From Rubrivivax sp. (GTDB lineage Bacteria > Pseudomonadota > Gammaproteobacteria > Burkholderiales > Burkholderiaceae_C), in the NCBI GenBank assembly GCA_022842825.1, contig JALHOU010000007.1, forward strand, positions 1 through 59,649: 59,649 nucleotides of DNA, written 5' to 3'. Positions 3 through 27,609 of the stretch are shown in pieces (position 1 is the first letter of the stretch; each line of letters opens with the position of its first letter). The notes under the pieces are model-generated. The model did not search any database. It had not been told where the DNA came from and saw nothing but the letters and a program-made list of their open reading frames with translations. The translations under genes and the position numbers were made by a program.

Positions 3-611
3 GCCGCGGCGCCCGCGCCGCCCGCGCCAACCCGCCAGCCGCACGCCGACAGCCGCGCGCCGCTGGTGCTGGACGCGGCGGCGCGCCTGTTCTGCCGCCA
101 GGGCTTCGAGGGCACCTCGGTGCGCGACATCGCCGGCGCCGCGGGCATGCTGCCTGGCTCCCTTTACTGCCACTTCGCCACCAAGGACGACCTGCTGGTG
201 GCCGTCTACCTGCGCGGCGTCGAGCAGATCTGCGCCGCCGTCGAGGCCGCCGTGTCGCCGCTCGCCGAGCCCTGGCCGCGGCTGGAGGCCGCCTGCGTGG
301 CGCACCTCGAGGCGATCCTGCGCGACGACGACTACGCACGAGTCGTGGTGCGCGTGCGGCCGGCCGACGTCCCCGGCGCGGCCGAGCGCCTCGTGGCCCA
401 GCGCGACCGCTACGAGGCGCTGTGGGCCGGCCTCGTCGCCGCGCTGCCATTGCCGCGCCGCACCGACCGCCGCGCCCTGCGGCTGATGCTGCTGGGCGCC
501 CTCAACTGGGCGCAGAACTGGTACCGCGCCGACGGCCACTCGTCGCCGCGCGTGCTGGCCCGCCAATTCACGGCCCTGCTGCGGCAGGGCCAGGAGACCG
601 CCACGCCATGA
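3..611 (+). CDS. TetR/AcrR-family transcriptional regulator (5' end outside window)
   Basis: The N-terminal helix-turn-helix is recognisable (residues after LDAAARLFCRQGFEGTSVR, followed by the recognition-helix motif GSLYCHFATKDDLL), so this is a one-component repressor of the TetR family. The frame stays open from base 3, and the first possible start inside the window (GTG at 66) would cut into the first helix, so the true start lies upstream. The C-terminal segment NWAQNWYRADG resembles TetR members that control acyl-CoA catabolism. It ends in an ATGA overlap with the mutase small-subunit gene, so it is co-transcribed with the operon it probably controls. The ligand is unknown; an acyl-CoA intermediate of the operon is the natural guess. 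Confidence 0.85.
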   Translation, partial: AAAPAPPAPTRQPHADSRAPLVLDAAARLFCRQGFEGTSVRDIAGAAGMLPGSLYCHFATKDDLLVAVYLRGVEQICAAVEAAVSPLAEPWPRLEAACVAHLEAILRDDDYARVVVRVRPADVPGAAERLVAQRDRYEALWAGLVAALPLPRRTDRRALRLMLLGALNWAQNWYRADGHSSPRVLARQFTALLRQGQETATP

Positions 612-1036
612 GCGAAGCCCCTGCCCTGATCCCCAAGGTGCTGATCACGAAGATCGGCTTCGACGGCCACGACCGCGGCAGCCGCGTCGTCGCCGCCGCG
701 CTGCGCGATGCTGGCATGGAGGTGATCTACACGCCGCCCTGGCAGGAGCTCGCCACCGTGGTGAAGCTGGCCACCGAGGAGGACGTCGACGTCATCGGCA
801 TCAGCTCGCTGGCCACCGACCACCTCATCGTGCCCAAGCTGATGGAGGCCCTGCGGGCCGCGGAGCTCGGCGACGTCGCCGTCATCGTCGGCGGCATCGT
901 GCCCGACGAGGACGAGCAGATGCTGCTCGAGGCCGGCGTGGCGCGCGTGTTCCACCCCGGCACCGCGCTGCCCGATATCGCCGCCAGCGTGCGTGCGCTG
1001 GCCGCCGAGGTGCGGGCGCGGCGCGCCACCGCCTGA
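608..1036 (+). CDS. Coenzyme-B12 acyl-CoA mutase, small (cobalamin-binding) subunit
   Basis: A 142-residue protein that matches the stand-alone B12-binding domain of methylmalonyl-, isobutyryl- and 2-hydroxyisobutyryl-CoA mutases (about 135-145 residues). The cobalamin-ligand motif DxHxxG is present as GFDGHDRGSR near residues 18-27, and the GG loop of the Rossmann-like domain as VIVGGIVPDED. The ATG at 608 is chosen because it overlaps the upstream TGA by 4 bp (ATGA) and begins just before the conserved KVLITKIGFDGHD strand. It should pair with the large subunit encoded 48 bp downstream to form the active mutase. Substrate is discussed under the large subunit. Confidence 0.92.
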   Translation: MSEAPALIPKVLITKIGFDGHDRGSRVVAAALRDAGMEVIYTPPWQELATVVKLATEEDVDVIGISSLATDHLIVPKLMEALRAAELGDVAVIVGGIVPDEDEQMLLEAGVARVFHPGTALPDIAASVRALAAEVRARRATA

Positions 1037-1084: not shown

Positions 1085-2785
1085 ATGAACAAGCCTTTCG
1101 ACGCCCCGCTCGCGGCCCTGCCCGCAGACGCCTCGATCGCCCCCGACACCGCCCTCGCCCGCTGGCAGGAGGAGTACGCGGCGCAGATCGGCACCGACCG
1201 CCCCGTGGTCAACCGCTCCGGCGTGCCGATCAAGCCGCTGTACACCGCCGCCGACTGGCAGCCTGCGCACGAGACCGAGCACGGCCTGCCGGGCCAGGCA
1301 CCGTACACGCGCGGCATCTACGCCACCATGCACCGCGGCCGCACCTGGACGCAGCGGCAGCTCATCGGCCTCGGCACCCCCGCCGAATACAACGCGCGGC
1401 TGCTCGACGTGCTGGCCGCCGGCGCCACGGCGGTGTCGCTGATCCCGTGCAACTCGGTCTTCCGCGGCTACGACATGGACGAGTCGCACGTCGAGTTGCT
1501 CGGCACCTGCGGCACGGTGGTCAACACCGCCGGCCACATGGACCGCGCGCTGCAAGGCGTCGACCTGGCCGCCACCTCGTGCGCCATGAACGACCCGAGC
1601 CCGTTCACGCTGCTGGCCTTCATGCTCGCCGCCGCGAAGAAGCGCGGCACCGACTGGCGGCAGGTGAGCGGCACCAGCAACCAGAGCGACTATCTCAGCC
1701 ACTATGTCGCCAACCACATGTTCTTCCGCATCGCGCTGCCCGGCGCGCGGCGCATCCTCGGCGACCACATCGAGTTCTGCAACCGCTTCGTGCCCAAGTG
1801 GAATCCGATGTCGGTGGTGGGCCAGCACATGCAGCAGGCCGGCGCCACGCCGGCCGAGGCCATGGCCTTCACGCTCAGCAGCGCGATCCAGAACGCCGAG
1901 GACTGCATCGCCCGCGGCATGGACCCCGACGCCTTCCTGCCACGCTTCACCTTCTTCTTCGACATCTCCATCAGCTTCTTCGAGGAGATTGCCAAGTTCC
2001 GCGCCGCGCGCCGCATCTGGGCGAAGGTGACGCGCGAGCGCCTGGGCGCCAAGGACCCGCGCAGCTGGCGCTTCAAGTTCCACGGCCAGACCTCGGGCGT
2101 GGACCTCACCCGCCAGCAGCCGCTGAACAACGTCGCGCGCGTGGCGGTGCAGGCGATGGCCGGCATCTTCGGCGGCCTGCAGTCGCTGCACACCGACGCC
2201 TACGACGAGGCGCTGTCGTGCCCGAGCGAGTTCGGCGCGCGCATCGCCGTGGCCACGCAGAACATCCTTCGCGAAGAGGCGCACCTCACCGATGTCATCG
2301 ACCCGCTGGGCGGCAGCCACTACGTGGAGGCGCTCACCGACCAGATGCAGGCCGAGATCGAGCGCGTCATGGGCCTCGTGCAGGGCGCCGGCGGCATGTA
2401 CCAGGCGGTCGAGACCGGCCTCGTGCAGCGTTTGATCGGCGACTCGGCGCGGCGTTTCCAGGCGCGCATCGACAACGGCGAGCAGACCGTCGTGGGTGTC
2501 AACGCGTACGCGGTGGACGAAGACCGCAGCGCGCGCCCCATCAACGCACGCCCCGACCGTGCCGCCATGCTCGCGCACCTCGACGACTTCCGCGCCTTCA
2601 AGACCGCCCGCTCGTCGGCCGCCGTGCAGCAGGCTCTTGGCGCGCTGGCGGGCGCCGCGCAGGACCCGCGCGACAACGTCTTCGGCCGCGTTGTCGAGGC
2701 CGCCGAAGCCGGCTGCACGCACGGCGAGATCTGCGCCACGCTGCGCCGCGAGCTCGGCTTTGGCCACGTGCAGGCACTCGTGTGA
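1085..2785 (+). CDS. Coenzyme-B12 acyl-CoA mutase, large subunit, atypical active site
   Basis: A 566-residue TIM-barrel subunit of the methylmalonyl-CoA mutase superfamily, the length of separate large subunits such as IcmA or HcmA. The ATG at 1085 has GGAG about 10 bp upstream; a GTG at 1055 is less likely. The catalytic-His segment is conserved ([10 protein letters not shown]248, equivalent to His244 of Propionibacterium methylmalonyl-CoA mutase). Substrate-determining positions are not. The Tyr/Phe/Ile position of MCM/ICM/HCM is Leu93 (RQLIGLG), the Arg/Gln position is Asn210 (HYVANHM), the usual GTIQND is GTSNQSD (residues 196-202), and the FDLPT-like loop reads IPCNSV (120-125). It therefore probably does not use methylmalonyl-CoA. 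Substrate unknown; branched or hydroxylated acyl-CoAs are possible. It overlaps the next gene by 4 bp (GTGA). Confidence 0.88.
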
Positions 2786-4059
2786 CCGACGCGGCTGCTC
2801 ACGGGAAGGCGCAGACCCATGCGCACCCACGCGCGCACGCGCCCGCCCGCGCCAGCGATCCGCTTCTGCCCCCAGGCCTGCTGCACGGCGACCGCCGCGC
2901 CGTGGCACGCACCATCAGCTGCATCGAGCAGGGCGCGCCGGAGGCCGCCGCGCTGCGCGCGGCGCTGGCGCCGCACCTGGGCCGCGCGCACGTCGTCGGC
3001 ATCACCGGTGCACCGGGCGCCGGCAAGTCCACGCTCGTGCACGCCTTGCTGGGCGAGTTGCTGGCGCGCGGGCAGCGCATCGGCGTCGTCGCCGTCGACC
3101 CTTCCAGCCCCCTGAGCGGCGGCGCCGTGCTCGGCGACCGCGTGCGCATGGGCGAGCATGGCGCGCACGCCGACGTCTTCATCCGCTCGGTGGCCTCGCG
3201 CGGCCATCTGGGAGGCCTTTCGCCCGGCACGCGCGCCATCGTCGACGTGCTCGACGCCGCCGGCTTCGACACCGTCATCGTCGAGACCGTGGGCACCGGC
3301 CAGTCCGAGGTGGAGATCCTGCGCGTCGCCGACACGCGCATCGTCGTCTGCCCGCCCGGGCTGGGCGACGAGGTGCAGGCGAGCAAGGCCGGCATCCTCG
3401 AGATCGCCGACCTGCTGGTGGTGAGCAAGGCCGACCTGCCCGGCGCCGAGGCCACCGTGCGCCACCTGCGCGAGATGCTGCAGCTGCGCGCCCAGCCCGC
3501 GGCCGCGGCCTGGAAGGTGCCTGTGCTGAGCGTCAGCGCCGGCACCCCTGCAGGCGCGGCGGCGCAGGGTGTCGCCGCGCTGGCGGAGACCACGCTGGAG
3601 CACGGCCGCCATGGCGGCCATGGCCGGCGCCTGCATGCCGATGCGAAGTCGGCCGCCGCCGCGGCACGCGTATTCCGCCTGGCCGCCAGCGACCCCTTCA
3701 TCAGCATCACCGGCATCACCTGCCAACGCGGCGGGCCCGGCGAGGCCGAGGTGCGCCTGCACCTGCGCGCGGAACACCTCAACTTCAACGGCTCCTGCCA
3801 CGGCGGTGTCATCTTCGCCCTCGCCGACACCGCCTTCGGCCTGGCGTCCAACTCGCACGGCACCGTGGCCGCCGGCATCGACGCCCACATCACCTACCAG
3901 CAGGCCGCGCGCGCCGGCGACACACTGATGGCACATGCACGCGAGGTCTCGCGCAGCCGCAAGCTGGCGGTGTACCGCGTGGACGTCACGCGCGCGGACG
4001 GTCGCGCCATCTCCAGCTTCACCGGCACCGTCTACCTCACGAGCGAGCATCACCCCTGA
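2782..4059 (+). CDS. MeaB/ArgK-type GTPase fused to PaaI-type hotdog thioesterase
   Basis: One uninterrupted 425-residue frame with two domains. Residues about 35-275 are a G3E GTPase of the MeaB family, which loads and protects B12 mutases: Walker A GAPGAGKS (76-83), AVDPSS (104-109), ETVGTGQSE (168-176) and SKAD (215-218) in place of NKxD. Residues about 290-425 are a PaaI-like hotdog acyl-CoA thioesterase with the signature [18 protein letters not shown] (336-353). The linker is His/Gly/Ala-rich (274-296), and no in-frame ATG or GTG there could restart translation. MeaB proteins are usually about 330 residues; here the C-terminal dimerisation part seems replaced by the hotdog domain. The GTG start overlaps the mutase stop (GTGA). 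Inference: chaperoning and thioester editing are coupled to the mutase. Confidence 0.88.
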
Positions 4060-4106
4060 GCGCTGCATGCCGCACGCCGCGCGCCGCGCGCCGCTAGGGG
4101 CTAACG

Positions 4107-5006
4107 ATGATGGCCTCGACGCACAGCGCTCCGAACAATCACCGGCCACACAAGCCCGCACGGATGAACCCGCCACCGCCTCCTCACGCCGCGCTGCTGC
4201 AGGCCGATGCCGTGCACCTCGGCTTCGGGGGCATCAAGGCCCTGGCAGGCGTCTCGCTCAGCGCGCGCGCGGGCGAGATCACCGCCATCATCGGCCCCAA
4301 CGGTGCCGGCAAGACGAGCCTGTTCAACACCATCTCCGGCTTCTACCGCCCGCAGCAGGGCCGCATCGCCTTCGCCGGGCAGGACATCACGCGCGTCGGC
4401 GCCGCACGCCGCGCCGCCATGGGCCTGGCGCGCACGTTCCAGAACGTGGCGCTCTTCCGCGGCATGAGCGTGCTCGACAACATCAAGCTCGGCGGCCACA
4501 CACGGCTGGGCGCCAACCCGCTGACGGCGCTGTGGTACCTGGGCCCGGCGCAGCGCGAGGAAATGGCCTTGCGCCGCGAGATCGAGCGCGAGGTCATCGA
4601 CTTTCTCGAGATCGACCACGTGCGCCACCAGGCGGTGGCCGCGCTGCCCTACGGGCTGCAGAAGCGCGTCGAGCTCGCGCGGGCGCTGGCCATGCGGCCC
4701 AAGGTGCTGATGCTCGACGAGCCGGTGGCCGGCATGAACCGCGAGGAAACCGAGGACATGGCGCGCTTCATCCTCGACATCCAGGAGGAGCGTGGCATCA
4801 CGGTGCTGCTGATCGAGCACGACATGGGCCTCGTCATGGACATCGCCAACCACGTCGTGGTGCTGAACTTCGGCCAGGTCATCGGCGAAGGCACGCCGGC
4901 CGAGGTGCGGCACGACCCCGAGGTGGTGCGGGCCTATCTCGGCGAGAGGGCGGCGGCCGCCGCGCCTGCGGCAGCACCGGCCGGCAGCGCCACGGTGGGG
5001 GCATGA
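4107..5006 (+). CDS. livG: Branched-chain-type ABC importer ATPase LivG
   Basis: A 299-residue ATP-binding subunit of the HAAT (LIV-type) family. It shows Walker A GPNGAGKTS, a Q-loop, Walker B VLMLDEP and the LivG-typical stretch PVAGMNREE, where most ABC proteins have other sequence. The ATG at 4107 follows AGGGG by about 7 bp; a later Met (4164) has no ribosome-binding site. Before the ABC domain is a Pro/His-rich leader of about 30 residues, and the C-terminus is Ala-rich. Its stop overlaps the livH start (ATGA). It supplies energy for uptake of a carboxylate or amino-acid-like substrate that the rest of the operon presumably degrades. Confidence 0.93.
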   Translation: MMASTHSAPNNHRPHKPARMNPPPPPHAALLQADAVHLGFGGIKALAGVSLSARAGEITAIIGPNGAGKTSLFNTISGFYRPQQGRIAFAGQDITRVGAARRAAMGLARTFQNVALFRGMSVLDNIKLGGHTRLGANPLTALWYLGPAQREEMALRREIEREVIDFLEIDHVRHQAVAALPYGLQKRVELARALAMRPKVLMLDEPVAGMNREETEDMARFILDIQEERGITVLLIEHDMGLVMDIANHVVVLNFGQVIGEGTPAEVRHDPEVVRAYLGERAAAAAPAAAPAGSATVGA

Positions 5007-5896
5007 ACAGCGCCGCCTTCGACTGGGTCGCGCTGGCCGAATACTCGGCCATCGGCCTGCTCTCCGGCGGCCTGCTCGCGCTCGTGGCGCTCGGCTTCGT
5101 GCTCATCTACAAGGGCACGGGCGTCATCAACTTTGCGATGGGCGAGTTCATGATGCTGGGCGCCTACTTCTTCTACACCGCCAACGTGATGTGGAAGTTG
5201 CCGATGGGCCTGGCACTGGCGCTCACGCTGGCCGCGGTGGCCCTCGTGGCGGCGCTGATCGAGCGCGCCCTGCTCAGGCCGCTGTCGGGGCAGCCGGTGA
5301 TCTCGGTGCTGATGGCTACCATCGGCCTGGCCAGCGCGCTGCACGGCGCCGTCGAGGGTGTCTGGGGCGGTCAGAACCTCGAGATGCCGCAGGTGCTGCC
5401 GCGCAAGCCCTTCACGCCGGGCGACATCCTCATTCCCGGCCAGGTGGTGTGGAGCTTCGTGCTGGCGACAGTGGTGATCACCGCCTTCACGCTGTACTTC
5501 CGCTTCTCGCGCACCGGCATCGCGATGCGCGCCGCCGCCAGCGACCCCGTCACCGCCTACGTCATGGGCATCGATGTGCGGCGCACGCAGGCGCTGACGT
5601 GGATGTTCGCCGGCATCGTGGGTGCCATGGCCGGCATCGTCGTCGCCTCGATGACGAGCCTGTCGCCGGCGCTGGGCGGTGCGGCGCTCGGCGTGCTGGC
5701 GGTCATCATCCTCGGCGGGCTGGACAGCATCGCCGGCGCCATCGTCGCCGGGCTCCTGGTCGGGCTCATCGAGAGCCTCACCGCCGCCTACCTCGGCGGC
5801 AAGGTGCGCGACATCGTGCCCTACGCCACCGTGCTCATCATCCTGCTCGTGCGGCCGTACGGCCTGTTCGGCACGCGGCAGATCGAACGGCTGTAG
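5003..5896 (+). CDS. livH: Branched-chain-type ABC importer permease LivH
   Basis: A 297-residue hydrophobic inner-membrane permease of the LivH type, with the characteristic start LSGGLLALVALGFVLIYK and the loop GVINFAMGEFMMLGAY. Further segments give about eight predicted membrane spans, including the conserved SLSPALGGAALGVLAVIILGG region. The ATG at 5003 is fixed by the 4 bp overlap with livG. With LivM it forms the transmembrane channel of the importer. The gene is followed, 22 bp later, by livM. Confidence 0.93.
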   Translation: MNSAAFDWVALAEYSAIGLLSGGLLALVALGFVLIYKGTGVINFAMGEFMMLGAYFFYTANVMWKLPMGLALALTLAAVALVAALIERALLRPLSGQPVISVLMATIGLASALHGAVEGVWGGQNLEMPQVLPRKPFTPGDILIPGQVVWSFVLATVVITAFTLYFRFSRTGIAMRAAASDPVTAYVMGIDVRRTQALTWMFAGIVGAMAGIVVASMTSLSPALGGAALGVLAVIILGGLDSIAGAIVAGLLVGLIESLTAAYLGGKVRDIVPYATVLIILLVRPYGLFGTRQIERL

Positions 5897-5918
5897 CCCG
5901 CGCCAGGAAAGAGACCCC

Positions 5919-6959
5919 ATGCGCATCGGCGACTTCCGCGCAAGCTACGCGCACGACGAGGCGATCTGGCCCACGCGCGTGCAGCGCCTGTGGCTGGCCG
6001 CGCTGGCCGTGGCGCTGCTCGTCTTTCCGTTCACGGCCAACAGCTACGTCGTGAGCCTGGCCTGCATCGTCGGCATCCACTGCATCGCCGCGGCGGGGCT
6101 GAACATCATGACCGGCTACACCGGACTCATCTCGCTGGGCCATGCGGCGTTCATGGGCGTGGGCTGCTACACGGCGGCCTGGCTCGCCAAGCAGGGGTTG
6201 CCGTTCTTCGTCACGCTGCCGGCCGCGGGCCTGATGGCGGCGGCACTGGGCATCATCGTCGGCCTGCCGAGCCTGCGCATCAAGGGCCTGTACCTGGCGG
6301 TGGCGACGCTGGCCACGCAGTTCCTGCTCGTCTACGTCTTCCGCGAGTGGGAAAGCGTCACCGGCGGCGTGCGCGGCGTCAACGTGCCGAATGCGAGCCT
6401 GTTCGGCTTCGAGCTGCTCAACGACCACCGCATGTACTTCCTCATCGTGCCGGTGGCGGCGCTGATGCTGGTGGGTGCGCGCAACCTCTTTCGCACGCGC
6501 GTGGGGCGCGCCTTCATCGCCATCCGCGACAAGGACATCTCGGCCGAGGTGCTGGGCATCGACCTGCTGCACTACAAGCTGGCGTCGTTCGCGATCGGCT
6601 CGTTCTACGCCGGCGTGGCCGGCGCACTGCTCGGCTACTTCTACCGGGCGATGACGCCCGAGTACTTCACGCTGCAGCTGTCCATCTTCTACCTCGCCGC
6701 CATCATCGTCGGCGGCCTGGGCAGCATGCTGGGCACGATCCTTGGCGCGGTCTTCATGACGCTGGTGCCCGAGCTGCTGCGCGGCGTCGTCGCCATCATT
6801 GCGCAGTGGGCACCGCGCGCCACCGAGGTGCTGAGCCCGGCGCAGCAGGTGGTGTTCGGCATCCTCATCATGGGTTTTCTCGTCTTCGAGCCGCATGGCC
6901 TGCTGGAAGTCTGGCGGCGCGTGCGCAGGACCTTTCACCTGTGGCCCTTCCGGGCCTGA
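5919..6959 (+). CDS. livM: Branched-chain-type ABC importer permease LivM
   Basis: A 346-residue LivM-type permease. It carries the family motifs NIMTGYTGLISLGHAAFMG near residue 62 and LPSLRIKGLYLAVATLA near residue 110, plus an EAA-like loop (IRDKDISAEVLGID). The ATG at 5919 follows AGGAAAGAG at good spacing. It pairs with LivH as the second channel subunit. The C-terminus FEPHGLLEVWRRVRRTFHLWPF is a basic cytoplasmic tail typical of the family. Confidence 0.93.
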   Translation: MRIGDFRASYAHDEAIWPTRVQRLWLAALAVALLVFPFTANSYVVSLACIVGIHCIAAAGLNIMTGYTGLISLGHAAFMGVGCYTAAWLAKQGLPFFVTLPAAGLMAAALGIIVGLPSLRIKGLYLAVATLATQFLLVYVFREWESVTGGVRGVNVPNASLFGFELLNDHRMYFLIVPVAALMLVGARNLFRTRVGRAFIAIRDKDISAEVLGIDLLHYKLASFAIGSFYAGVAGALLGYFYRAMTPEYFTLQLSIFYLAAIIVGGLGSMLGTILGAVFMTLVPELLRGVVAIIAQWAPRATEVLSPAQQVVFGILIMGFLVFEPHGLLEVWRRVRRTFHLWPFRA

Positions 6960-7021
6960 CGCCCCTTCCGCCCGCGACGCAACCACCCCTCACCCACCTC
7001 TCACCCACCCAGGAGCCCGCC

Positions 7022-8251
7022 ATGAGCCACCATGACCTGAGCAACCCCCAGCGCCGCCGCCTCGTCGGTGCCGGCCTCGGCGCCGCCGGTGCCACCGCCC
7101 TCTCGGCGCTGCCGTTGCGCGCGGCCCTGGCGCAAAGCGGCGAAATCGTCGTCGCCGCCGCGCCACCCATCACCGGCGTGTTCGCGTTCGCCGGCGTCGG
7201 CCTGCACCAGGGCCTGGGCGACTACTGCCAATGGCGCAACGAAGCCAGGAAGGGCGTCGCCGGCCGCCTGCTGCGCTACGTCGGCGAAGACTCGGGCTAC
7301 AAGATGGACCAGGCGATGGCTGTCTTCAAGAAGTTGATGGGCGCGCACAAGCCGCCGGTGTTCTACGGCGACAGCACGGCCTGGGCCAAGGCCGCCGCGC
7401 AGGAAGTGAGCCAGCTCGGCACCACGCTCACCTCGAGCCCGAGCTTCAGCTCCGACCTCGCCGACCCGAAGAACGCGCCCTACTACTTCATGGCCGGCCC
7501 CACCTACACGGCGATGGGCGAGATCCTGCTCGAGTACATCAATCGCACCTCGCGCGGCGCCACCAAGCCGGCAGTGGCCATCGTCTACAGCGACACCGAA
7601 TTCGGCCGCGACCCCATCCCCGGCATCAAGGCCAAGGCGCAGGCACTGCAGATCCCGCTCGTGCAGGAGATCGTCACCAAGCCCGGGGCCGTGGACGTGA
7701 GCAGCGAGGTCGCCAAGCTGCGCCGTGCCAAGCCCGACTACGTCATCTTCCATGGCTACGTGCTGGCGCCGATCCCCGAGTTCATCAAGCAGATGCGCGA
7801 GGCCGGCATGAGCACGGTGCCGATGGGCACCATCTGGAGCATGGACAAGACCACAGTCGATGCCATGGGTGCCGCCGGCCAGGGCTGGATGGGCGTGATG
7901 CCCTACCGCTACAGCTACGACACCGAAGGCGCGCCGACGATGCAGGCGATCAAGGACTTCGCCGCCAAGGCGCGGCCGAACATGCCCTACGTGCCGCTGT
8001 TCTACACGCACGGCTGGCTGGTTGGCATGATCTTCGCCGAGGTCATCGAGCGCACGCTGAAGGCCGGCAAGCCGCTGACGGGGCCCAACATGAAGGCGGC
8101 CCTCGAGAGCATCGACAACTGGGACACCGGCGGCGTCACCGGCCTGCTCGTGTCGTTGAAGGGACACCAGATCCCCAGCGGCCGCATCTACACCTACGAC
8201 GCGACTTCCAAGCTGCTGCAGCCGGCGAGCGGTTGGATCAAGACCGCCTGA
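7022..8251 (+). CDS. livK: LivK-type periplasmic substrate-binding protein
   Basis: A 409-residue type I periplasmic binding protein of the branched-chain amino-acid (LivK/Peripla_BP_6) family, preceded by AGGAG at the right distance. The N-terminus has a twin-arginine-like signal (NPQRRRLVGAGLGAAGA, then cleavage near ALAQSG). The mature part starts EIVVAAAPPITGVFAFAG, the usual first strand and ligand loop. Such proteins in catabolic operons bind aromatic, branched or dicarboxylic acids as often as amino acids; which ligand is bound cannot be read from the sequence. It sits between livM and livF in the same operon. Confidence 0.92.
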   Translation: MSHHDLSNPQRRRLVGAGLGAAGATALSALPLRAALAQSGEIVVAAAPPITGVFAFAGVGLHQGLGDYCQWRNEARKGVAGRLLRYVGEDSGYKMDQAMAVFKKLMGAHKPPVFYGDSTAWAKAAAQEVSQLGTTLTSSPSFSSDLADPKNAPYYFMAGPTYTAMGEILLEYINRTSRGATKPAVAIVYSDTEFGRDPIPGIKAKAQALQIPLVQEIVTKPGAVDVSSEVAKLRRAKPDYVIFHGYVLAPIPEFIKQMREAGMSTVPMGTIWSMDKTTVDAMGAAGQGWMGVMPYRYSYDTEGAPTMQAIKDFAAKARPNMPYVPLFYTHGWLVGMIFAEVIERTLKAGKPLTGPNMKAALESIDNWDTGGVTGLLVSLKGHQIPSGRIYTYDATSKLLQPASGWIKTA

Positions 8252-8285
8252 TCCAGCGCCGCCTTGGTCCCGGCATCCGCCCGCC

Positions 8286-9094
<809 letters not shown>

Positions 9095-9098
<4 letters not shown>

Positions 9099-10963
9099 GA
9101 GCGGCCGACGTCGATGCGCTCACCTTGCCGCAGCAGCTGCGGCACTGGGCACACGCGCGCCCCGACGCCGTGGCGTTGCGGCAGAAGGACTTCGGCATCT
9201 GGGAGCCCGTCACCTGGGCGTTGTACGAGCAGGCGGCGCGCCACTTCGGCCTCGGCCTGGTGAAGCTCGGCCTGCCCGAAGGCGGGCACTGCGCCATCAT
9301 CAGCGAGAACCGCAAGGAGTGGGTCTTTGCGCAACTCGGCTGCGGGCTCGTCGGCGCCGTCCCGGTCGGCGTCTATCCCACGTCGCCGGCGCCCGAGATC
9401 GAGTACCTGCTGCACGCCTCCGACGCCGTGGTGGTGGTGTGCGAAGACCAGGAGCAGCTCGACAAGGTGCTCGAGGTGCGCGAACGGCTGCCATTGCTGC
9501 GGCACCTCGTCGTCATCGACCCGCGCGGCCTGCGCCACTACGAGGTGCCGGGGATGATGACCTTCGAGGAGGTCACGGCACTCGGCGCCGCCTTCGAGCA
9601 CGAGAAACCGCGCATCGTCGAGGAGCGGCTCGAGCGGCAGCGCATGGACGACACGGCGCTGATGATCTTCACCAGCGGCTCCACAGGCCGGCCCAAGGCG
9701 GCGATGATCAGCTACGGCAACGTCGCCGCCATGGCGCGCGGCGCCGACGCCATCTACCGCTGCACGCCGGCCGACAGCATGGTCTCGTACCTGCCGCTGT
9801 GCCACGTGGCCGAGCAGATCTACACCGTGAACCTGCCGCTGCGCTCGGGCGCGGTGGTCAACTTCGCCGAGAGCCTGCGCACGGTGCAGAGCGACCTGCG
9901 CGAGATCGCGCCCACCCTCTTCCTCGGCGTGCCGCGCATCTGGGAGAAGCTGCACGCCAGCATCGAGATCAAGGTGCGCGAGACCGGGGGGCTGCGCCGC
10001 AAGCTCTACGAGCGCGCACTCGCGTCGACACTGCCCCTTGCCGACCTGCCGCCCGAGCGCCGCACGCTCGCGCAACGCCTCACGCACGGCCTTTGGTGGT
10101 GGCTGGTGCAACGCGCGCTCACCAACTTCATCGGCCTCACGCGCTGCCGCATGGCGCTTTCGGGTGCGGCGCCCATCGCGCCGGACATGCTGCGCTTCTT
10201 CCGCGCCCTCGGCGTGCCCATCCGCGAGGGCTACGGCATGACCGAGACGGCGGGCGTGGCCACCGTGCAGCGCAGCGCCGCCTCGCCGCTGGGCACCGTG
10301 GGCAGCGCCATCCCCGGCGTGGAGCTGAAGATCGCCGACGACGGGGAGCTGCTCGTACGCGGCCCCACCGTCTTCAAGGGCTACTACCGCAACGAGGCGG
10401 CCACGCGCGAGGCCATCGACGCCGAAGGCTGGCTGCACACCGGCGACGTGGCCGAGCGCGTGCCCACGGCGGGCAGCGCGGTGCATGGCGACGAGATCCG
10501 CATCATCGACCGCAAGAAGGACATCATGATCACCGCCGGCGGCAAGAACATCACCCCGAGCGAGATCGAGAACGCACTCAAGTTCAGCGCCTACGTCAAG
10601 GAGGCGATCGTCGTCGCCGACCGCCGGCCCTTCGTGGCGGCACTGATCCAGATCGACTACGACACGGTGGGCAAATGGGCCGAGGAGCAGGGCCTGGCCT
10701 ACACGCACTTCCGCAGCCTCGCCGAGCACGCGCGCGTGCGCGAGCTCGTGCAGGCCGAAGTGGACCGCGTCAATGCCCGCATGCCGCAGGTGCAGCAGGT
10801 GCGCAAGTTCCACCTGCTGACCAAGGAGCTCGACCACGACGACGGCGAGGTCACGGCGACGATGAAGGTCAAGCGCAGGAGCATTGCCGAGAAGTACGCC
10901 GATGCCATCGAGGCGCTGTACGGCGCCAGCGCGGCACGTTCACCCGAAGGACAGACGGCATGA
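9095..10963 (+). CDS. AMP-forming long-chain-type acyl-CoA ligase
   Basis: A 622-residue adenylate-forming enzyme of the long-chain acyl-CoA synthetase (FAA/FadD15-like) group. Core motifs are present: the P-loop IFTSGSTGRPKAA near residue 190, GYGMTET near 380, the WLHTGD hinge near 445 and the catalytic-lysine loop DRKKDIMITAGGKNI near 475. It forms acyl-AMP and then acyl-CoA from a free acid, ATP and CoA in the cytoplasm. The GTG start is set by a 4 bp overlap with livF, and the 3' end overlaps the SDR gene. The natural substrate is likely the acid imported by the Liv system and need not be a long-chain fatty acid. Confidence 0.92.
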
Positions 10964-11865
10964 CCCAGATCCGCTTCGACGGCCGCGTGGCCATCGTCAC
11001 CGGTGCCGGCGGCGGCCTGGGCCGCGCGCATGCGCTGCTGCTCGCGTCGCGCGGCGCGGCCGTGGTCGTCAACGACCTCGGCGGCAGCCTCAACGGCGTG
11101 GGCGGCGACACCGCGGCGGCGAGCCAGGTCGTGCGCGAGATCGAGGCCGCCGGCGGCCGCGCGCTCGCGAGCTTCGACGACATCGCCACGCCCGCGGGCG
11201 CGCAGCGCCTGGTCGATGCCGCGGCACAGGCCTTCGGCCGCGTCGACATCCTGATCAACAACGCCGGCATCCTGCGCGACAAGACGCTCGTCAAGATGGA
11301 GCCCGCCGACTTCGAGGCCGTGGTGCGCGTGCACCTGCTCGGCTCGGCGTGGTGCTCGCGTGCCGTGCTGCCGCTGATGCAGCAGCAGCAGTACGGCCGC
11401 ATCGTCATGACCACCTCGGCCGCGGGCCTCTACGGCAACTTCGGGCAGAGCAACTACGGCGCCGCCAAGCTCGCCGTCGTGGGCCTCATGAACTCGCTCA
11501 AGCTCGAGGCCGAGAAGTTCGGCATCCGCGTCAACACGATCGCCCCGGTGGCGCTGACACGCATGACCGAGGGCCTGCCCTTCGCGCGCATGCTGGAGGA
11601 GGCCACGCCCGAGCGTGTGGCCGCCGGCGTGGCCTACCTGGCCAGCGAGTCGTGCGATGCGAGCGGCATCGTGCTGGCCGCCGGCGCCGGCTACTTCTCC
11701 ACGGTGCGCATCATCGAAGGCCAGGGGGTGCACCTGCCCGCCGGCGACATCAGCCCCGAGACCGTGGCCGCCCGCTGGGGCGAGATCAGCGCCGAGGCAG
11801 ACGCGCGGCCGTTTGCGAATGCCGGTGCAGCGCTCCTCGGCGCCTTCGGAGGCGACCGCGGCTGA
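10960..11865 (+). CDS. SDR, (3R)-hydroxyacyl-CoA-dehydrogenase-like
   Basis: A 301-residue classical short-chain dehydrogenase. The NAD(P)-binding motif is TGAGGGLG (14-21), followed by VVVNDLGG, a sequence typical of the dehydrogenase domain of peroxisomal multifunctional enzyme type 2. The active site has Asn in INNAG, Ser153, Tyr166 and Lys170 (YGAAK). Length also fits that MFE-2-like group rather than 250-residue FabG. It would oxidise a 3-hydroxyacyl-CoA or reduce the ketone. It starts in an ATGA overlap with the ligase gene and is followed 16 bp later by the acyl-CoA dehydrogenase. Confidence 0.9.
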   Translation: MTQIRFDGRVAIVTGAGGGLGRAHALLLASRGAAVVVNDLGGSLNGVGGDTAAASQVVREIEAAGGRALASFDDIATPAGAQRLVDAAAQAFGRVDILINNAGILRDKTLVKMEPADFEAVVRVHLLGSAWCSRAVLPLMQQQQYGRIVMTTSAAGLYGNFGQSNYGAAKLAVVGLMNSLKLEAEKFGIRVNTIAPVALTRMTEGLPFARMLEEATPERVAAGVAYLASESCDASGIVLAAGAGYFSTVRIIEGQGVHLPAGDISPETVAARWGEISAEADARPFANAGAALLGAFGGDRG

Positions 11866-11881
11866 GCAGGCACCCGACGCG

Positions 11882-13066
11882 ATGATCGACGACCTCTACC
11901 CCGCCACCGCCCCGCTGGCCAGCGAGGAGCACGCGGCCTTCCGCGCCACCGTGCGCCGCTTCATCGCCGAAGAGGTCACGCCGCACCACGCGTTATGGGA
12001 GCGCGACGGCCAGGTTCCGCGCGAGCTCTGGCGGCGCGCCGGCGAGCTGGGCCTCTTGTGCCTGACCGTGCCCGAGGCCTACGGCGGCGCCGGCGTCGAT
12101 TTCGGCTACGCCGCCATCGTCACGGAGGAGATGGCGCGCGCCGGCGCCACCGGGCCGCTGTTCTACCTGCACTCCGACATCGTCGCGCCCTACCTCGTGC
12201 ACTACGGCACCGAGGCGCAGAAGCGGGCGTGGCTGCCGCGTCTGGCCAGCGGCGAGGTCATCGCCGCCATCGGCATGACCGAGCCCGGCGCCGGCAGCGA
12301 CCTCGCCTCGCTGCGCACACGCGCCGAGGCCGAGGGCGACGGCGCCGATGCCTGCTGGCGCATCAACGGCCAGAAGATCTTCATCAGCAACGGCCAGCTG
12401 TGCGACCTGCTGCTGCTGGCCGCCAAGACCGACCCGGCGCGCGGCGCGCACGGCGTGAGCCTGCTGCTCGTGCCCACGCACCTGAGCGGCTTCGGGCGCG
12501 GCCGGCGGCTCGAGAAGCTCGGCATGCACGCGCAGGACACCTCCGAGCTCTTCTTCACCGACCTGCGCGTGCCGCGCGACCACCTGCTCGGCGAGGCGGG
12601 GCGCGGCTTCGCCAACATGATGAGCCAGCTGCCGCAGGAGCGGCTGCTGGTGGCCATCACCGCGGTGGGCGCCATGGAGGCGGCGGTGGCCTGGACACGC
12701 GAGCAGGTGATGCAGCGCGAGGCCTTCGGCGCGCCGCTGGCCGACAAGCAGACTGTGCGCCACCGCCTGGCCGAGGCGCACGGCAACACGCGCGTGGCGC
12801 GCGCCTTCCTCGACGACTGCCTGCGCCGGCACCTGGCCGGCGAGCTCGACACCGCCACTGCCTCGATCGCCAAGTACTGGTGCACCGAGATGCAATTCCA
12901 GGTGCTCGACAACTGCCTGCAGCTCTTCGGCGGCTACGGCTACATGCGCGAATACCCGATCGCGCGCGCCTGGGTCGACGCGCGCGTGCAGCGCGTCTAC
13001 GGCGGCACCACCGAGATCATGAAGGAGATCGTGGCGCGCTCGTTGTTCGAGGGGCGGCGCGGCTGA
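11882..13066 (+). CDS. Acyl-CoA dehydrogenase
   Basis: A 394-residue FAD-dependent acyl-CoA dehydrogenase with the motifs IGMTEPGAGSD near 130-140 and FGGYGYMREYPIARAW near 349-364. The usual catalytic-Glu position in the C-terminal loop reads YGGTTEIM (Gly, not Glu, after Tyr), whereas Glu253 in LPQERLL falls where isovaleryl-CoA and long-chain dehydrogenases carry their base. This suggests a branched or bulky substrate. It introduces an alpha,beta double bond and passes electrons to ETF. It is the last clear gene of the mutase/Liv operon, and GCAGG lies about 11 bp before its ATG. Confidence 0.92.
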   Translation: MIDDLYPATAPLASEEHAAFRATVRRFIAEEVTPHHALWERDGQVPRELWRRAGELGLLCLTVPEAYGGAGVDFGYAAIVTEEMARAGATGPLFYLHSDIVAPYLVHYGTEAQKRAWLPRLASGEVIAAIGMTEPGAGSDLASLRTRAEAEGDGADACWRINGQKIFISNGQLCDLLLLAAKTDPARGAHGVSLLLVPTHLSGFGRGRRLEKLGMHAQDTSELFFTDLRVPRDHLLGEAGRGFANMMSQLPQERLLVAITAVGAMEAAVAWTREQVMQREAFGAPLADKQTVRHRLAEAHGNTRVARAFLDDCLRRHLAGELDTATASIAKYWCTEMQFQVLDNCLQLFGGYGYMREYPIARAWVDARVQRVYGGTTEIMKEIVARSLFEGRRG

Positions 13067-24450: not shown

Positions 24451-25223
24451 GACACCTCCTTGGCCACGTCGGCGAGGAAGTCCGCCTTGGCGAGCGCGCC
24501 GCCGTGGCCGGCGTTCGGCCCCCAGCCCGGGTAGAGGGCGGCGAAGTCGGCCAGCATCTGCGTCAGCGGCAGGTCGTCGAAGCTGCCGCGCTGGTGCACG
24601 TATTCCATGTGCCGGTTGCCGGCGCGGTCGTAGGGGTGGTAGATCGAATCGCCGGTGCCGTCGAACTCCAGCGGCACGAGGCCGAAACGCTCGCACAGCT
24701 GCAGGTTGAACGCCGGCGTCGCCTTCAGCCAGCGGCCCTCGATGAGGATGTCGGTGTAGCCGTGCCAGACGAAGAGGTCGGTCTTCATCACCTCGCGCAT
24801 GCGCTCGGTGCTGAGGTGGTTGCGCACGTCGGCATAACCCAGCCGCGCCGGGATGCCCACGGCGCGGCAGGCCGCGGCCAGCAGCACGGCCTTCGGCACG
24901 CACCAACCGTATCCGTTGGCGAGCACGGTGCTGGCGCGCAGGCCCGCGGGCGTGAGGTCGACTCGGTAGGGGTCGTAGCGGAAGCCGTCGCGCACAGCCA
25001 GGTACAGCGACACGGCGCGCTCGCGTACGCTCGAGCCACGCGCGTGCTCGGTGGCGAAGGCGCGCACGGCAGCGTGGTCGCTGTCGATGAATGACGTCGG
25101 CTGCAGCGCTGCGGCGCCAGCGGCGACCTCCGGGACCGCACTCGTGGCGGCGACGCGGGTGCCGGCTGCAGCGGGCGCGCCGTTGGGGTCGTAAGGTGCG
25201 GGGCTCATCGTCGAAGTCTTCAT
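24447..25223 (-). CDS. Transglutaminase-like (papain-fold) protein
   Basis: A 258-residue protein with a transglutaminase-like core. Cys108 lies in NGYGWCVPKAVLLAAACRA, followed by GIPARLGYADVRNHL, and His154 in VWHGYTDILIEGRW. The third catalytic residue, normally Asp after W..V, is not seen: the strand reads WLKATPAFN. I recall this KATPAFN form as usual in one bacterial subfamily, so it may be a subfamily trait and not a defect. The ATG at 25223 overlaps the enoyl-CoA hydratase stop (ATGA). Its pairing with two acyl-CoA enzymes is unusual, and its substrate is unknown. Confidence 0.83.
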   Translation of the reverse strand: MKTSTMSPAPYDPNGAPAAAGTRVAATSAVPEVAAGAAALQPTSFIDSDHAAVRAFATEHARGSSVRERAVSLYLAVRDGFRYDPYRVDLTPAGLRASTVLANGYGWCVPKAVLLAAACRAVGIPARLGYADVRNHLSTERMREVMKTDLFVWHGYTDILIEGRWLKATPAFNLQLCERFGLVPLEFDGTGDSIYHPYDRAGNRHMEYVHQRGSFDDLPLTQMLADFAALYPGWGPNAGHGGALAKADFLADVAKEVS

Positions 25224-26161
25224 TCGTAGCCTGGATCCTGCCACCACGGGAACCACTCGGGCATCGCCTGCGTGACACGGTCGGTGAACAACGCCGGGCG
25301 CTTCTCGAGGAAGGCGGTGACGCCCTCGCGCACGTCGGCCGAGCGGCCGCGCGAGAAGATGGCGCGGCTGTCGACGCGGTGCGCCATCATCGGGTGCGGC
25401 TCGCCGAGCATGCGCCACATCATCTGCCGTGTCAGCGCCACGCTCACCGGCGCGGTGTTCTCGGCGATCTCGCGCGCGATGGCGCGCGCCGCCGGCAGCA
25501 GCGCATCGGGCGCCAGCACTTGGCGCACGAGGCCACCTTCGAGCGCCTCGGCGGCCGGGAAGACGCGGCCGCTCATCGTCCACTCGAGCGCGCGGCTGAT
25601 GCCCACCAGGCGCGGCAGGAACCAGCTTGAGCAGGCCTCGGGCACGATGCCCCGCCGCGCGAAGACGAAGCCGATGCGCGCCGCCTCGCTGGCCAGCCGG
25701 ATGTCCATCGGCAGCAGCATCGTGGCGCCGATGCCCACCGCGGGCCCGTTCACCGCCGCGATCACCGGCTTTAGGCAGTTGAAGATGCGCAGCGTGACGC
25801 GGCCGCCGCCGTCGCGCACGGCCTCGTGGCGCCAGTCGATGCGGCCGTCGGCGCCGATGGCCTCGCCCACGGCCGGCCGGCCGGCCTCGCCGGCGCGCGC
25901 CGCGTAGTCGAAAGTCCTGCCGCCTTGCGAGAGGTCGGCACCGGCGCAGAAGGCGCGCCCGGCGCCGGTGACGATGACGGCGCGCACCTCGTCGTCGGCG
26001 TCGGCGCGGTCGAAGGCGGCGATGAGCTCGCTCATCATCGCCGCGTTGAAGGTGTTGAGCGCCTCGGGGCGGTTCAGCGTCACCGTCAGCACACGCTCGC
26101 TGAGCTCGATGCTCAGCGTCGTGGGCAGGCCGGCGGGCCGCGTGGGCAGCGTCTCGGACAT
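25220..26161 (-). CDS. Enoyl-CoA hydratase/isomerase (crotonase family)
   Basis: A 313-residue crotonase. The oxyanion-hole segments are present (GAGRAFCAGADLSQGG, and KPVIAAVNGPAVGIGATMLL). The catalytic helix carries GIVPEACSSWFLPRLVG, retaining Glu164-like and losing the other Glu, as in several isomerases and hydratases. A 30-residue insertion (RTFDYAARAGEAGRP and following) after the first loop and a long C-terminus make it longer than the usual 260. AAGGAG lies upstream of the start. It is the first gene of a three-gene operon. Confidence 0.9.
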   Translation of the reverse strand: MSETLPTRPAGLPTTLSIELSERVLTVTLNRPEALNTFNAAMMSELIAAFDRADADDEVRAVIVTGAGRAFCAGADLSQGGRTFDYAARAGEAGRPAVGEAIGADGRIDWRHEAVRDGGGRVTLRIFNCLKPVIAAVNGPAVGIGATMLLPMDIRLASEAARIGFVFARRGIVPEACSSWFLPRLVGISRALEWTMSGRVFPAAEALEGGLVRQVLAPDALLPAARAIAREIAENTAPVSVALTRQMMWRMLGEPHPMMAHRVDSRAIFSRGRSADVREGVTAFLEKRPALFTDRVTQAMPEWFPWWQDPGYE

Positions 26162-26274: not shown

Positions 26275-27609
26275 TCACGCGCCCGAGAGGCACGCCGCGG
26301 GCCGTGCGCCACCGCCGCCGCCACCGCCGCCGCTGCGGCCGCGCAGCCACAGCGATTGCAGCCCGCGCAGATTGATCATCGGCCGCCAGCGCACTTCATC
26401 GTCAGCCCGCTCGAGGGTGGCAAACCGCTGCAGCAGCACTTCGAGCGCCAGCTCGGCCTCCAAACGCGCCAGCGGTGCACCCACGCAGTAGTGCACGCCG
26501 CCGCCAAACGCCAGCTGCGGGTTCGGGTTGCGGCGGATGTCGAAGCGCTCGGGCTCGGCAAACACCGCCGGGTCGTGGTTGGCCGCACCCACCATGCAGT
26601 AGAGCGCCTCGCCGGCGGGAACCGTGATGTCGGCCATCGTCCACGGCGCGCGCGTGATGCGCGCCACCATGTTGGTGGGGCTTTCGTAGCGCAGCATCTC
26701 CTCCACCGCGCAGGGCAGCAGCGCCGGCTCACGACGCAGCAGCGCCAGTTGCTCGGGGTGGCGCAGCAAGGCGAGCAGGCCGTTGCCGAGCAGGTTGGTG
26801 GTGGTCTCGTGCCCGGCAATGAAGAGCAGGATGAGGTTGGCGAGCAACTCGTCGTCGTTGAACGCAGGATCTACGCGCTGCGCGTCGATCATGCGGTCGA
26901 GCACGGTGTCACCCGGCCGCAGCCGGCGCCGGGCCACCTGCGCGGCGAGGTAAGCCGTCAGTTCTGCCACCGCGCGTGCGCCTTCGGCCCGATCGGCGCG
27001 CGAGGCGAGTGGCTCCACGAGGCAGGCCGCGGCTTCGGACCACGCCTTGGCCTGGTCGAAGTCGCCGGCGTCGATGCCCAGCAGGTCGCAGACAACGCGG
27101 ATCGGCAGCACCTGGGCGAAGTCGCGCATGAAGTCGAACGGCGTGCCGTCGGCCGGCAGCGCCGCGGCGAGCGCGCGCGCGCTTGCCGCCACCATCTCGC
27201 GCAGCTGGCGCGTGGCCGCCGGTGTGAAGGCGGCGGCCACCACCCGGCGCAGCCGCGTGTGCACCGGCGCATCGCTGAAGAGCATGAAGCGCTCGGCCGC
27301 CTGCTCCAGCGCCGAGCCGGCGATGAAGGGACGCAGCCTCGCGTAGCCGTTGTGCTGCCGCGGGTCGCGGCTCAGGTGCGCGCTCTGCATCACCGCGCGG
27401 CAATCGGCATGACCGAGCAGCAACCACAGGCCTTGCGTGTCGCGGTGCACGCGACCGCGCTCGCGCAGGCGGCGGGCCTGCTCACGCGGCGCGGTCAGCC
27501 AGGCCGGGTCGCGCAGGTCAACCAGCTCGCCGGCCAAGTGGGGGATCGGCGGGTTGCGGTCGTCACCGGCAGCGGCGGCAGTGGGCGCCTCGAGGGCTTG
27601 CAGCGTCAT
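26275..27609 (-). CDS. Cytochrome P450
   Basis: A 444-residue soluble bacterial P450. The I-helix reads FIAGHETTTNLLGNG (residues about 263-277), the K-helix ExxR is EEMLR (303-307), and the heme-ligand loop FGGGVHYCVGAPLARLE places the thiolate at Cys375. These features give a class I monooxygenase needing ferredoxin and reductase, which are not encoded here. The C-terminus ends in a Gly8 run (GGGGGGGGARPAACLSGA) beyond the conserved fold. It lies 113 bp upstream of the enoyl-CoA hydratase operon on the same strand, so it may feed an oxidised acid into it; this is inference. Confidence 0.95.
   Translation of the reverse strand: MTLQALEAPTAAAAGDDRNPPIPHLAGELVDLRDPAWLTAPREQARRLRERGRVHRDTQGLWLLLGHADCRAVMQSAHLSRDPRQHNGYARLRPFIAGSALEQAAERFMLFSDAPVHTRLRRVVAAAFTPAATRQLREMVAASARALAAALPADGTPFDFMRDFAQVLPIRVVCDLLGIDAGDFDQAKAWSEAAACLVEPLASRADRAEGARAVAELTAYLAAQVARRRLRPGDTVLDRMIDAQRVDPAFNDDELLANLILLFIAGHETTTNLLGNGLLALLRHPEQLALLRREPALLPCAVEEMLRYESPTNMVARITRAPWTMADITVPAGEALYCMVGAANHDPAVFAEPERFDIRRNPNPQLAFGGGVHYCVGAPLARLEAELALEVLLQRFATLERADDEVRWRPMINLRGLQSLWLRGRSGGGGGGGGARPAACLSGA

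Follow-up and report, generated by a model that had tools for sequence, protein, structure and literature searches.

A recurrent fusion of a MeaB-type GTPase with a PaaI-type hotdog thioesterase beside a B12-dependent acyl-CoA mutase

RESULTS

A MeaB-type GTPase and a hotdog thioesterase share one reading frame

The window analyzed here is a 59,649-nucleotide stretch of Rubrivivax sp. (assembly GCA_022842825.1, contig JALHOU010000007.1, positions 1 to 59,649), and its subject is a gene that joins a G3E GTPase of the MeaB type to a PaaI-type hotdog thioesterase, directly downstream of a B12-dependent acyl-coenzyme A (acyl-CoA) mutase (Table 1). The GTG start codon of the fusion (2782 to 2784) overlaps the TGA stop codon of the mutase (2783 to 2785), and the frame remains open up to a TGA at 4057 to 4059. 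Pfam matches MeaB at residues 42 to 279 (E value of 1.6e-80) and 4HBT at residues 336 to 409 (E value of 7.3e-17). A preliminary description of this DNA had given the frame, its Walker A and SKAD motifs, and an 18-residue hotdog motif at residues 336 to 353, all of which were exact, and the complete hotdog domain that it named is borne out by the 4HBT match and by structural alignment to 2fs2_B.

The same description held that no start codon lies between the two domains. This is correct for in-frame ATG, GTG, and TTG, none of which occurs in codons 249 to 323; the nearest are codons 248 and 324, the latter within the hotdog domain. An internal restart yielding a free thioesterase was rejected on this basis, though not wholly, since five in-frame CTG codons (249, 267, 272, 284, and 300) are present between GTPase and hotdog. 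A G+C content of 74% makes long open frames cheap, so frame length alone is no proof of a real gene. However, a chance frame or a sequencing or assembly artifact is argued against by homology on both sides of the junction, by substitution patterns, and by the presence of the fusion in isolates (Ramlibacter and Pseudaminobacter) and on one complete plasmid. Compared with six relatives (L031, L137, L138, L032, L033, and L145; L and G numbers are our handles for loci and genomes), the ratio of nonsynonymous to synonymous substitution rates (dN/dS) was 0.15 to 0.42 for the GTPase, 0.24 to 0.46 for the hotdog, and 0.08 to 0.64 for the linker of about 30 codons. Purifying selection acts on the GTPase and hotdog halves alike, with dN/dS below 1 against all six relatives.

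Table 1. Coordinates of features in the window and of variant fusions at related loci (locus:positions)
Feature	Location	Strand	Remarks
TetR-family regulator	3..611	+	Open at 5' edge of window
B12-binding small subunit of mutase	608..1036	+	
Acyl-CoA mutase large subunit	1085..2785	+	Subfamily distinct from MCM and HCM, by alignment
MeaB::PaaI-type fusion gene	2782..4059	+	425 residues; GTG start overlaps mutase stop
G3E GTPase domain, residues ~32-280	2875..3621	+	No MeaB C-terminal dimerization extension
P-loop GAPGAGKS, residues 76-83	3007..3030	+	
Switch III, residues ~191-202, with D196, Q199, K202	3352..3387	+	Placed by motif; MeaB switch III in PMC9974510 (in part)
Base-specificity motif SKAD, residues 215-218	3424..3435	+	
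Complete PaaI-like hotdog thioesterase domain, residues 288-425	3643..4056	+	Structural match 2fs2_B, 138 residues, root mean square deviation 1.4
Hotdog active-site stretch N334...H340-G341-G342...D349	3781..3828	+	
Five ABC transporter genes, LivG-, LivH-, LivM-, LivK-, LivF-type	4164..9098	+	LivM and LivF named by order and similarity only
AMP-forming acyl-CoA ligase	9095..10963	+	
Short-chain dehydrogenase and acyl-CoA dehydrogenase genes	10960..13066	+	
Fusions with degenerate hotdog	L116:7804-8973; L119:7460-8629; L121:7622-8866		N and HGG lost, Asp kept, very long branches
MeaB::nitroreductase-type, longer	L158:11832-13298; L168:11745-13214		
MeaB::nitroreductase-type, shortened	L157:12141-13454; L037:7520-8836		L037 is L184
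MeaB::CutA1	L036:7991-9145		In a genome from the same genus as the window; no adjacent mutase gene
MeaB::XdhC/CoxI	L105:2313-3431 (G776)		Followed by separate XdhC Rossmann-domain gene, 3428-4117
MeaB with tail XdhC-like by eye	L108:7760-8974 (G513)		No Pfam match

The fusion recurs beside the same mutase

Matches covering both domains were found at 6 of 61, 16 of 399 (plus G150 by gene call), 4 of 399, and 3 of 369 in four genome samples, which overlap and each count the window's own genome; cutoffs in the three larger samples were strict and may miss weaker fusions. In a phylum-wide sample of 398 genomes, no match at an E value of 1e-90 or below covered both domains except that of the window itself, and seven other matches spanned the GTPase part only, their tails being unchecked. 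Three of the 16 matches, all in genus group g131, have a degenerate hotdog and no adjacent mutase. Recurrence beside the same mutase in several genera had been set beforehand as a check on the fusion, and normal fusions in this position were found in 11 genus groups belonging to four families, including one outside the order. Among the gene-called loci, a normal fusion occurred at 23 distinct ones, and at every one the mutase gene lies immediately upstream of it. Genes for a TetR-family regulator and the B12 subunit usually precede the mutase, with exceptions lacking a labeled TetR or B12 gene that include L110, L113, L114, and L117.

A scan of named bacterial records with a mutase alignment returned 287 relatives, of which the best 80 were analyzed; these loci overlap those from the genome samples, sharing contigs such as L136/L031, L162/L103, and L184/L037. 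A GTPase fused to a PaaI-type hotdog stands beside the mutase at 57 of the best 80 loci (56 by a one-frame test at the DNA level and L211 by gene call). Among the 72 loci with at least 1.5 kb of sequence past the mutase, 56 were fused and 16 unfused, and at 11 of the 16 unfused loci a hotdog is encoded separately, by a same-strand gene no more than 3.5 kb downstream. The same queries gave 0 matches in 586,535 bases farther from the mutase at these loci. A PaaI-type gene lies upstream in L197, and no hotdog gene was found near the mutase in L163, L167, L171, or L205. A thioesterase thus accompanies the mutase usually, not always.

Titles of records with the fusion include Rubrivivax, Ramlibacter, Rhodoferax, Polaromonas, Methylibium, and the alphaproteobacterium Pseudaminobacter arsenicus, and most are metagenome assembled. 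A complete plasmid of Diaphorobacter also carries it; in this one annotated fusion inspected, the record names the product simply as MeaB, which leaves its thioesterase half unannotated. We found no description of a MeaB-thioesterase fusion in the open-access literature searched, and an earlier mention elsewhere is possible. The main text of PMC516016, in the part available, discusses hotdog fusions and does not mention GTPase, MeaB, or LAO, and the single mention of "thioesterase" in the available part of PMC10356863 concerns an assay background. The fusion is real and recurrent, and it is a new form of a known kind of chaperone.

The GTPase half lacks the end of the dimerization arm

The GTPase half shares with MeaB and MMAA (PDB 2QM7, 8DPB, and 8GJU) the G3E fold, P-loop, switches I to III, and dimer contact residues, but it is without the end of their C-terminal dimerization extension (the arm) and has the hotdog thioesterase there instead. 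The window protein scores 279.6 bits with TIGR00750 (cutoff, 240.75), and the match stops at position 238 of 300. Matches to this model ended between positions 233 and 256 in each of the 13 scanned proteins that carry a tail (the window protein, five other hotdog fusions, four nitroreductase fusions, two XdhC-type fusions, and one CutA1 fusion) and between 295 and 299 in all 6 untailed proteins. The preliminary description had called the GTPase complete, which holds for the GTPase domain but not for MeaB as a whole, as about 60 C-terminal profile positions are absent.

According to the available sections of PMC9974510, PMC10481361, and PMC10356863, MeaB and MMAA dimerize via the C-terminal extension, the active state is dimeric, and in it one protomer contributes its switch III to complete the nucleotide site of its partner. 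Residues D106, R122, E168, Q174, D196, Q199, and K202 of the window protein, matched by motif to MeaB D92, R108, E154, Q160, D182, Q185, and K188 (PMC9974510, in part), show no variation across the 50 aligned fusions. With the switch residues invariant and the arm missing, a GTPase seemingly built for a dimer has lost much of its dimerization segment. Judged by alignment, the fused chaperone lacks the C-terminal dimerization extension even though the dimer-dependent residues of its GTPase site are invariant, a combination that is new here. A proposal that SKAD changes nucleotide use found no support: the first position of this motif alternates among Thr (23), Ser (18), and Asn (9) across the 50 fusions, with Asp retained in 49, and this was taken as ordinary variation. 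The window's genome also holds another MeaB match and an IcmF-like frame, so the fusion copy looks dedicated.

The hotdog half usually keeps its active site

Like PaaI thioesterases of known structure (PDB 1PSU, 2FS2, and 1J1Y), the hotdog half of the window protein has a complete hotdog fold and the N...HGG...D active site. Unlike them, it is part of a chaperone, and its score of 105.5 bits falls under the cutoff of 118.9 for the NCBIfam equivalog of hydroxyphenylacetyl-CoA thioesterase PaaI (TIGR02286). Of 75 hotdog rows, 69 have the N-HGG-D pattern whole and 72 have H-G..D; 10 of the rows are labeled stand-alone, but among these L201 is fused by the DNA test and L039 starts at a contig end. 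The three degenerate fusions (L116, L119, and L121) come from genomes in which the window's mutase subfamily was not found, and a predicted model of one degenerate-hotdog relative retains the hotdog fold.

Unfused relatives and other tails

In Xanthobacter autotrophicus Py2, plasmid pXAUT01 carries MeaB (Xaut_5042, 329 residues) and a PaaI-type protein (Xaut_5041, 153 residues) as separate genes with a 4-base overlap. The operon Xaut_5045-5034 has the same order of TetR, B12 subunit, mutase large subunit, MeaB, PaaI-type, ligase, and ABC transporter genes, but its separate MeaB is matched by the profile to position 298 of 300, and its PaaI-type protein is 32% identical to the window hotdog. 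In G561, the TetR gene, both mutase subunits, two other 4HBT genes, MeaB, and PaaI are all separate, with MeaB and PaaI overlapping by 8 bases. The two additional 4HBT-type thioesterase genes lie between the mutase and MeaB (L104:8765-9661), in addition to the PaaI-type gene, and one such gene 3' of the mutase is also present in L156, L157, L160, L161, L162 (the L103 contig), L166, L169, and L173.

Within the same MeaB lineage the arm is replaced not only by a hotdog but also by a nitroreductase-type domain, by CutA1, and by an XdhC/CoxI domain (Table 1). A sub-cutoff match in L158 (58.9 versus 150 bits) raised BluB, an enzyme of the B12 lower ligand, as the identity of the nitroreductase-type tail, but this was rejected, as the relatives of known structure that match best are nitroreductases (3gr3_A, E value of 2e-65, versus 2.8e-11 for BluB). 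A separate CutA gene lies directly 3' of the MeaB::PaaI fusion in L032, so a deletion may have joined MeaB to CutA1 in L036. No mutase of the window's kind adjoins the MeaB fusions of L105 or L108. The hotdog (as free PaaI), nitroreductase, CutA1, and XdhC/CoxI folds are all known to self-associate.

A tree of 112 MeaB-type proteins, minus 17 near-copies and with frames of more than 700 residues excluded, has an unfused clade flanked on either side by fused proteins (support of 82 to 91). It needs 9 changes between fused and unfused states, a number that is inflated because at least four "unfused" rows (L159, L160, L172, and L185) are on contigs ending near the gene. The hotdog tree, from which one row of fewer than 80 columns was excluded (it was kept in the motif count), has few columns and many unresolved forks. 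These trees do not establish a single origin: they would fit either one early fusion with later splits or several fusions.

The neighboring mutase and its operon

Aligned with HcmA and human methylmalonyl-CoA mutase (MCM), the window's mutase has Leu, Ile, and Asn at pocket positions holding Ile/Tyr, Asp/Ala, and Gln/Arg, respectively, and it has Gln in place of the Tyr adjoining the conserved His; the functions of these sites are presumed. Leu and Asn stand where the human enzyme has its substrate-carboxylate Tyr and Arg, which we take to be Y89 and R207 in the Propionibacterium enzyme. The NCBIfam MCM score was 432.9 versus 876, low partly because the model covers the one-chain enzyme. Similarly, Leu and Ile occupy the sites aligned with Ile and Asp of 4r3u_A, presumably the signature residues numbered Ile90 and Asp117 in 2-hydroxyisobutyryl-CoA mutase (HCM). 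The large subunit is 66% identical to Xaut_5043 and 36% identical to its counterpart in L042, which is HCM-like by motif. By these residues, the protein is not a classical MCM, and its subfamily is separate from those of MCM and HCM. Neither methylmalonyl-CoA nor 2-hydroxyisobutyryl-CoA is a likely substrate for such a pocket, with which a hydrocarbon branched acyl group would be compatible. Given the identity to Xaut_5043, the enzyme is perhaps a pivalyl-CoA mutase, interconverting pivalyl-CoA and isovaleryl-CoA: a native pivalyl-CoA mutase, which may be Xaut_5043/5044, has reportedly been described from X. autotrophicus Py2.

From the gene layout around the fusion we infer a putative operon for uptake, activation, and degradation of a carboxylic acid. 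Farther along the window, cytochrome P450 and enoyl-CoA hydratase-type genes lie on the minus strand at 26275-27609 and 25220-26161, respectively.

DISCUSSION

A chaperone whose arm may have been exchanged for a thioesterase

Our preferred explanation, to which we give a probability of about 0.5, is that the fusion is a dedicated adenosylcobalamin (AdoCbl) chaperone for the adjacent acyl-CoA mutase, in which the hotdog replaces the arm and also acts as an overflow valve for acyl-CoA. The hotdog would self-associate and thereby keep two GTPase domains paired, and one domain's switch III could then complete the other's nucleotide site. Like MeaB, the paired GTPases would open the mutase for loading or repair of AdoCbl. 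As long as the mutase stood open, empty, or inactivated, its acyl-CoA would be hydrolyzed by the attached hotdog, releasing trapped CoA. The acyl-CoA hydrolyzed is probably branched and made by the operon's acyl-CoA ligase. Both dimerization and thioesterase activity are predicted properties of the fusion. In favor of this explanation are the intact GTPase and hotdog sites, the missing arm, the repeated linkage to the mutase operon, and the relatives that lost N and HGG, one of which keeps the hotdog fold in its model. We read the hotdog as a dimerization module as well as an enzyme mainly because unrelated self-associating folds occupy the place of the arm. Hydrolysis sited at the mutase is plausible by comparison with the control role in which PaaI removes excess phenylacetyl-CoA (PMC4498308, in part).

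Several observations weigh against this explanation. The overflow role is drawn by analogy with PaaI. The structural match to MeaB 8dpb_A extends to residue 290 of that protein, and the helix that opens the hotdog is superposed on the beginning of the extension; the loss is therefore certain only for the final portion of the arm. All four MeaB::nitroreductase loci keep PaaI as a separate downstream gene. Three loci with full context (L163, L167, and L171) have an untailed MeaB with no hotdog gene found nearby, and two (L161 and L183) have a hotdog with no MeaB found nearby; therefore, neither the hotdog nor MeaB is obligatory beside the mutase. In the control for separate hotdog genes, the queries were partly drawn from such loci, and distant hotdogs go unseen. 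The degenerate hotdogs represent one genus group and two independent sequences, in draft genomes that are 94 to 96% complete, so the absence of the mutase from them is uncertain.

Another point of this kind comes from IcmF, whose G domains associate only transiently, in higher-order, GTP-dependent oligomers (PMC10481361, in part), which may make a permanent arm unnecessary. This behavior, the retention of H-G..D in nearly all hotdog rows, and the separate PaaI-type or 4HBT genes of the same operon elsewhere would also suit a simpler possibility, that the hotdog is an ordinary overflow thioesterase tethered near the mutase while the armless GTPases pair transiently, as proposed for IcmF. We regard this as a tentative alternative: it does not account for the loss of the arm end in every tailed protein scanned, whatever the tail, or for the hotdog fold kept in the model of a relative that has lost the motif. 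The loss of HGG in three relatives and the different self-associating fold types in the same place could be taken to mean that the hotdog has ceased to be a physiological thioesterase and serves as a scaffold for dimerization or CoA binding. Such a purely structural role is quite unlikely, as most fusions keep the whole motif and the hotdog is under constraint (dN/dS, 0.24 to 0.46). It is also unlikely that adjacent, coexpressed genes were joined for convenience, with domains that do not interact functionally. The overlapping genes of Xanthobacter Py2 and G561 and the mixing of fused and unfused states on the MeaB tree are consistent with a history of this kind, but the fusion has been kept in four families and is accompanied by loss of a functional part of MeaB, a segment that unrelated tails also replace.

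An extension of the preferred explanation, which we consider rather doubtful, would make the hotdog both hinge and acyl-CoA sensor: binding or hydrolysis of acyl-CoA would alter hotdog pairing and gate the GTPase dimer, making AdoCbl loading substrate dependent, in a lineage that swaps its arm for whole self-associating domains (hotdog, nitroreductase, CutA1, or XdhC/CoxI). In MeaB and MMAA, the C-terminal arm is the hinge for a large rotation that accompanies B12 loading, and human MMAA defects lead to methylmalonic aciduria (PMC9974510 and PMC10356863, both in part). With a natural family in which another fold has replaced the end of the arm, the requirements on this hinge can be explored. 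The fusion may also couple cofactor repair to disposal of a stalled acyl-CoA, and it draws attention to a mutase subfamily whose substrate is uncertain.

Relation to other mutase systems

As in IcmF, the fused isobutyryl-CoA mutase, a MeaB-type G domain is joined covalently to another activity of an acyl-CoA mutase system. However, the G domain of IcmF is joined to the mutase, at opposite ends of the dimer (PMC10356863, in part), whereas in the window its partner is the thioesterase and the mutase subunits are separate genes (IcmF profile score, 132.3 versus 1,500). The 2-hydroxyisobutyryl-CoA mutase HcmAB with its chaperone MeaH also combines a two-subunit AdoCbl mutase, a G-protein chaperone, and an acyl-CoA ligase in an operon-like order (PMC7176365, in part), but the pocket residues differ, and the regulator is GntR rather than the TetR type of the window. 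In L168, the B12-binding subunit and the mutase large subunit form one frame of 674 residues (L168:9662-11686).

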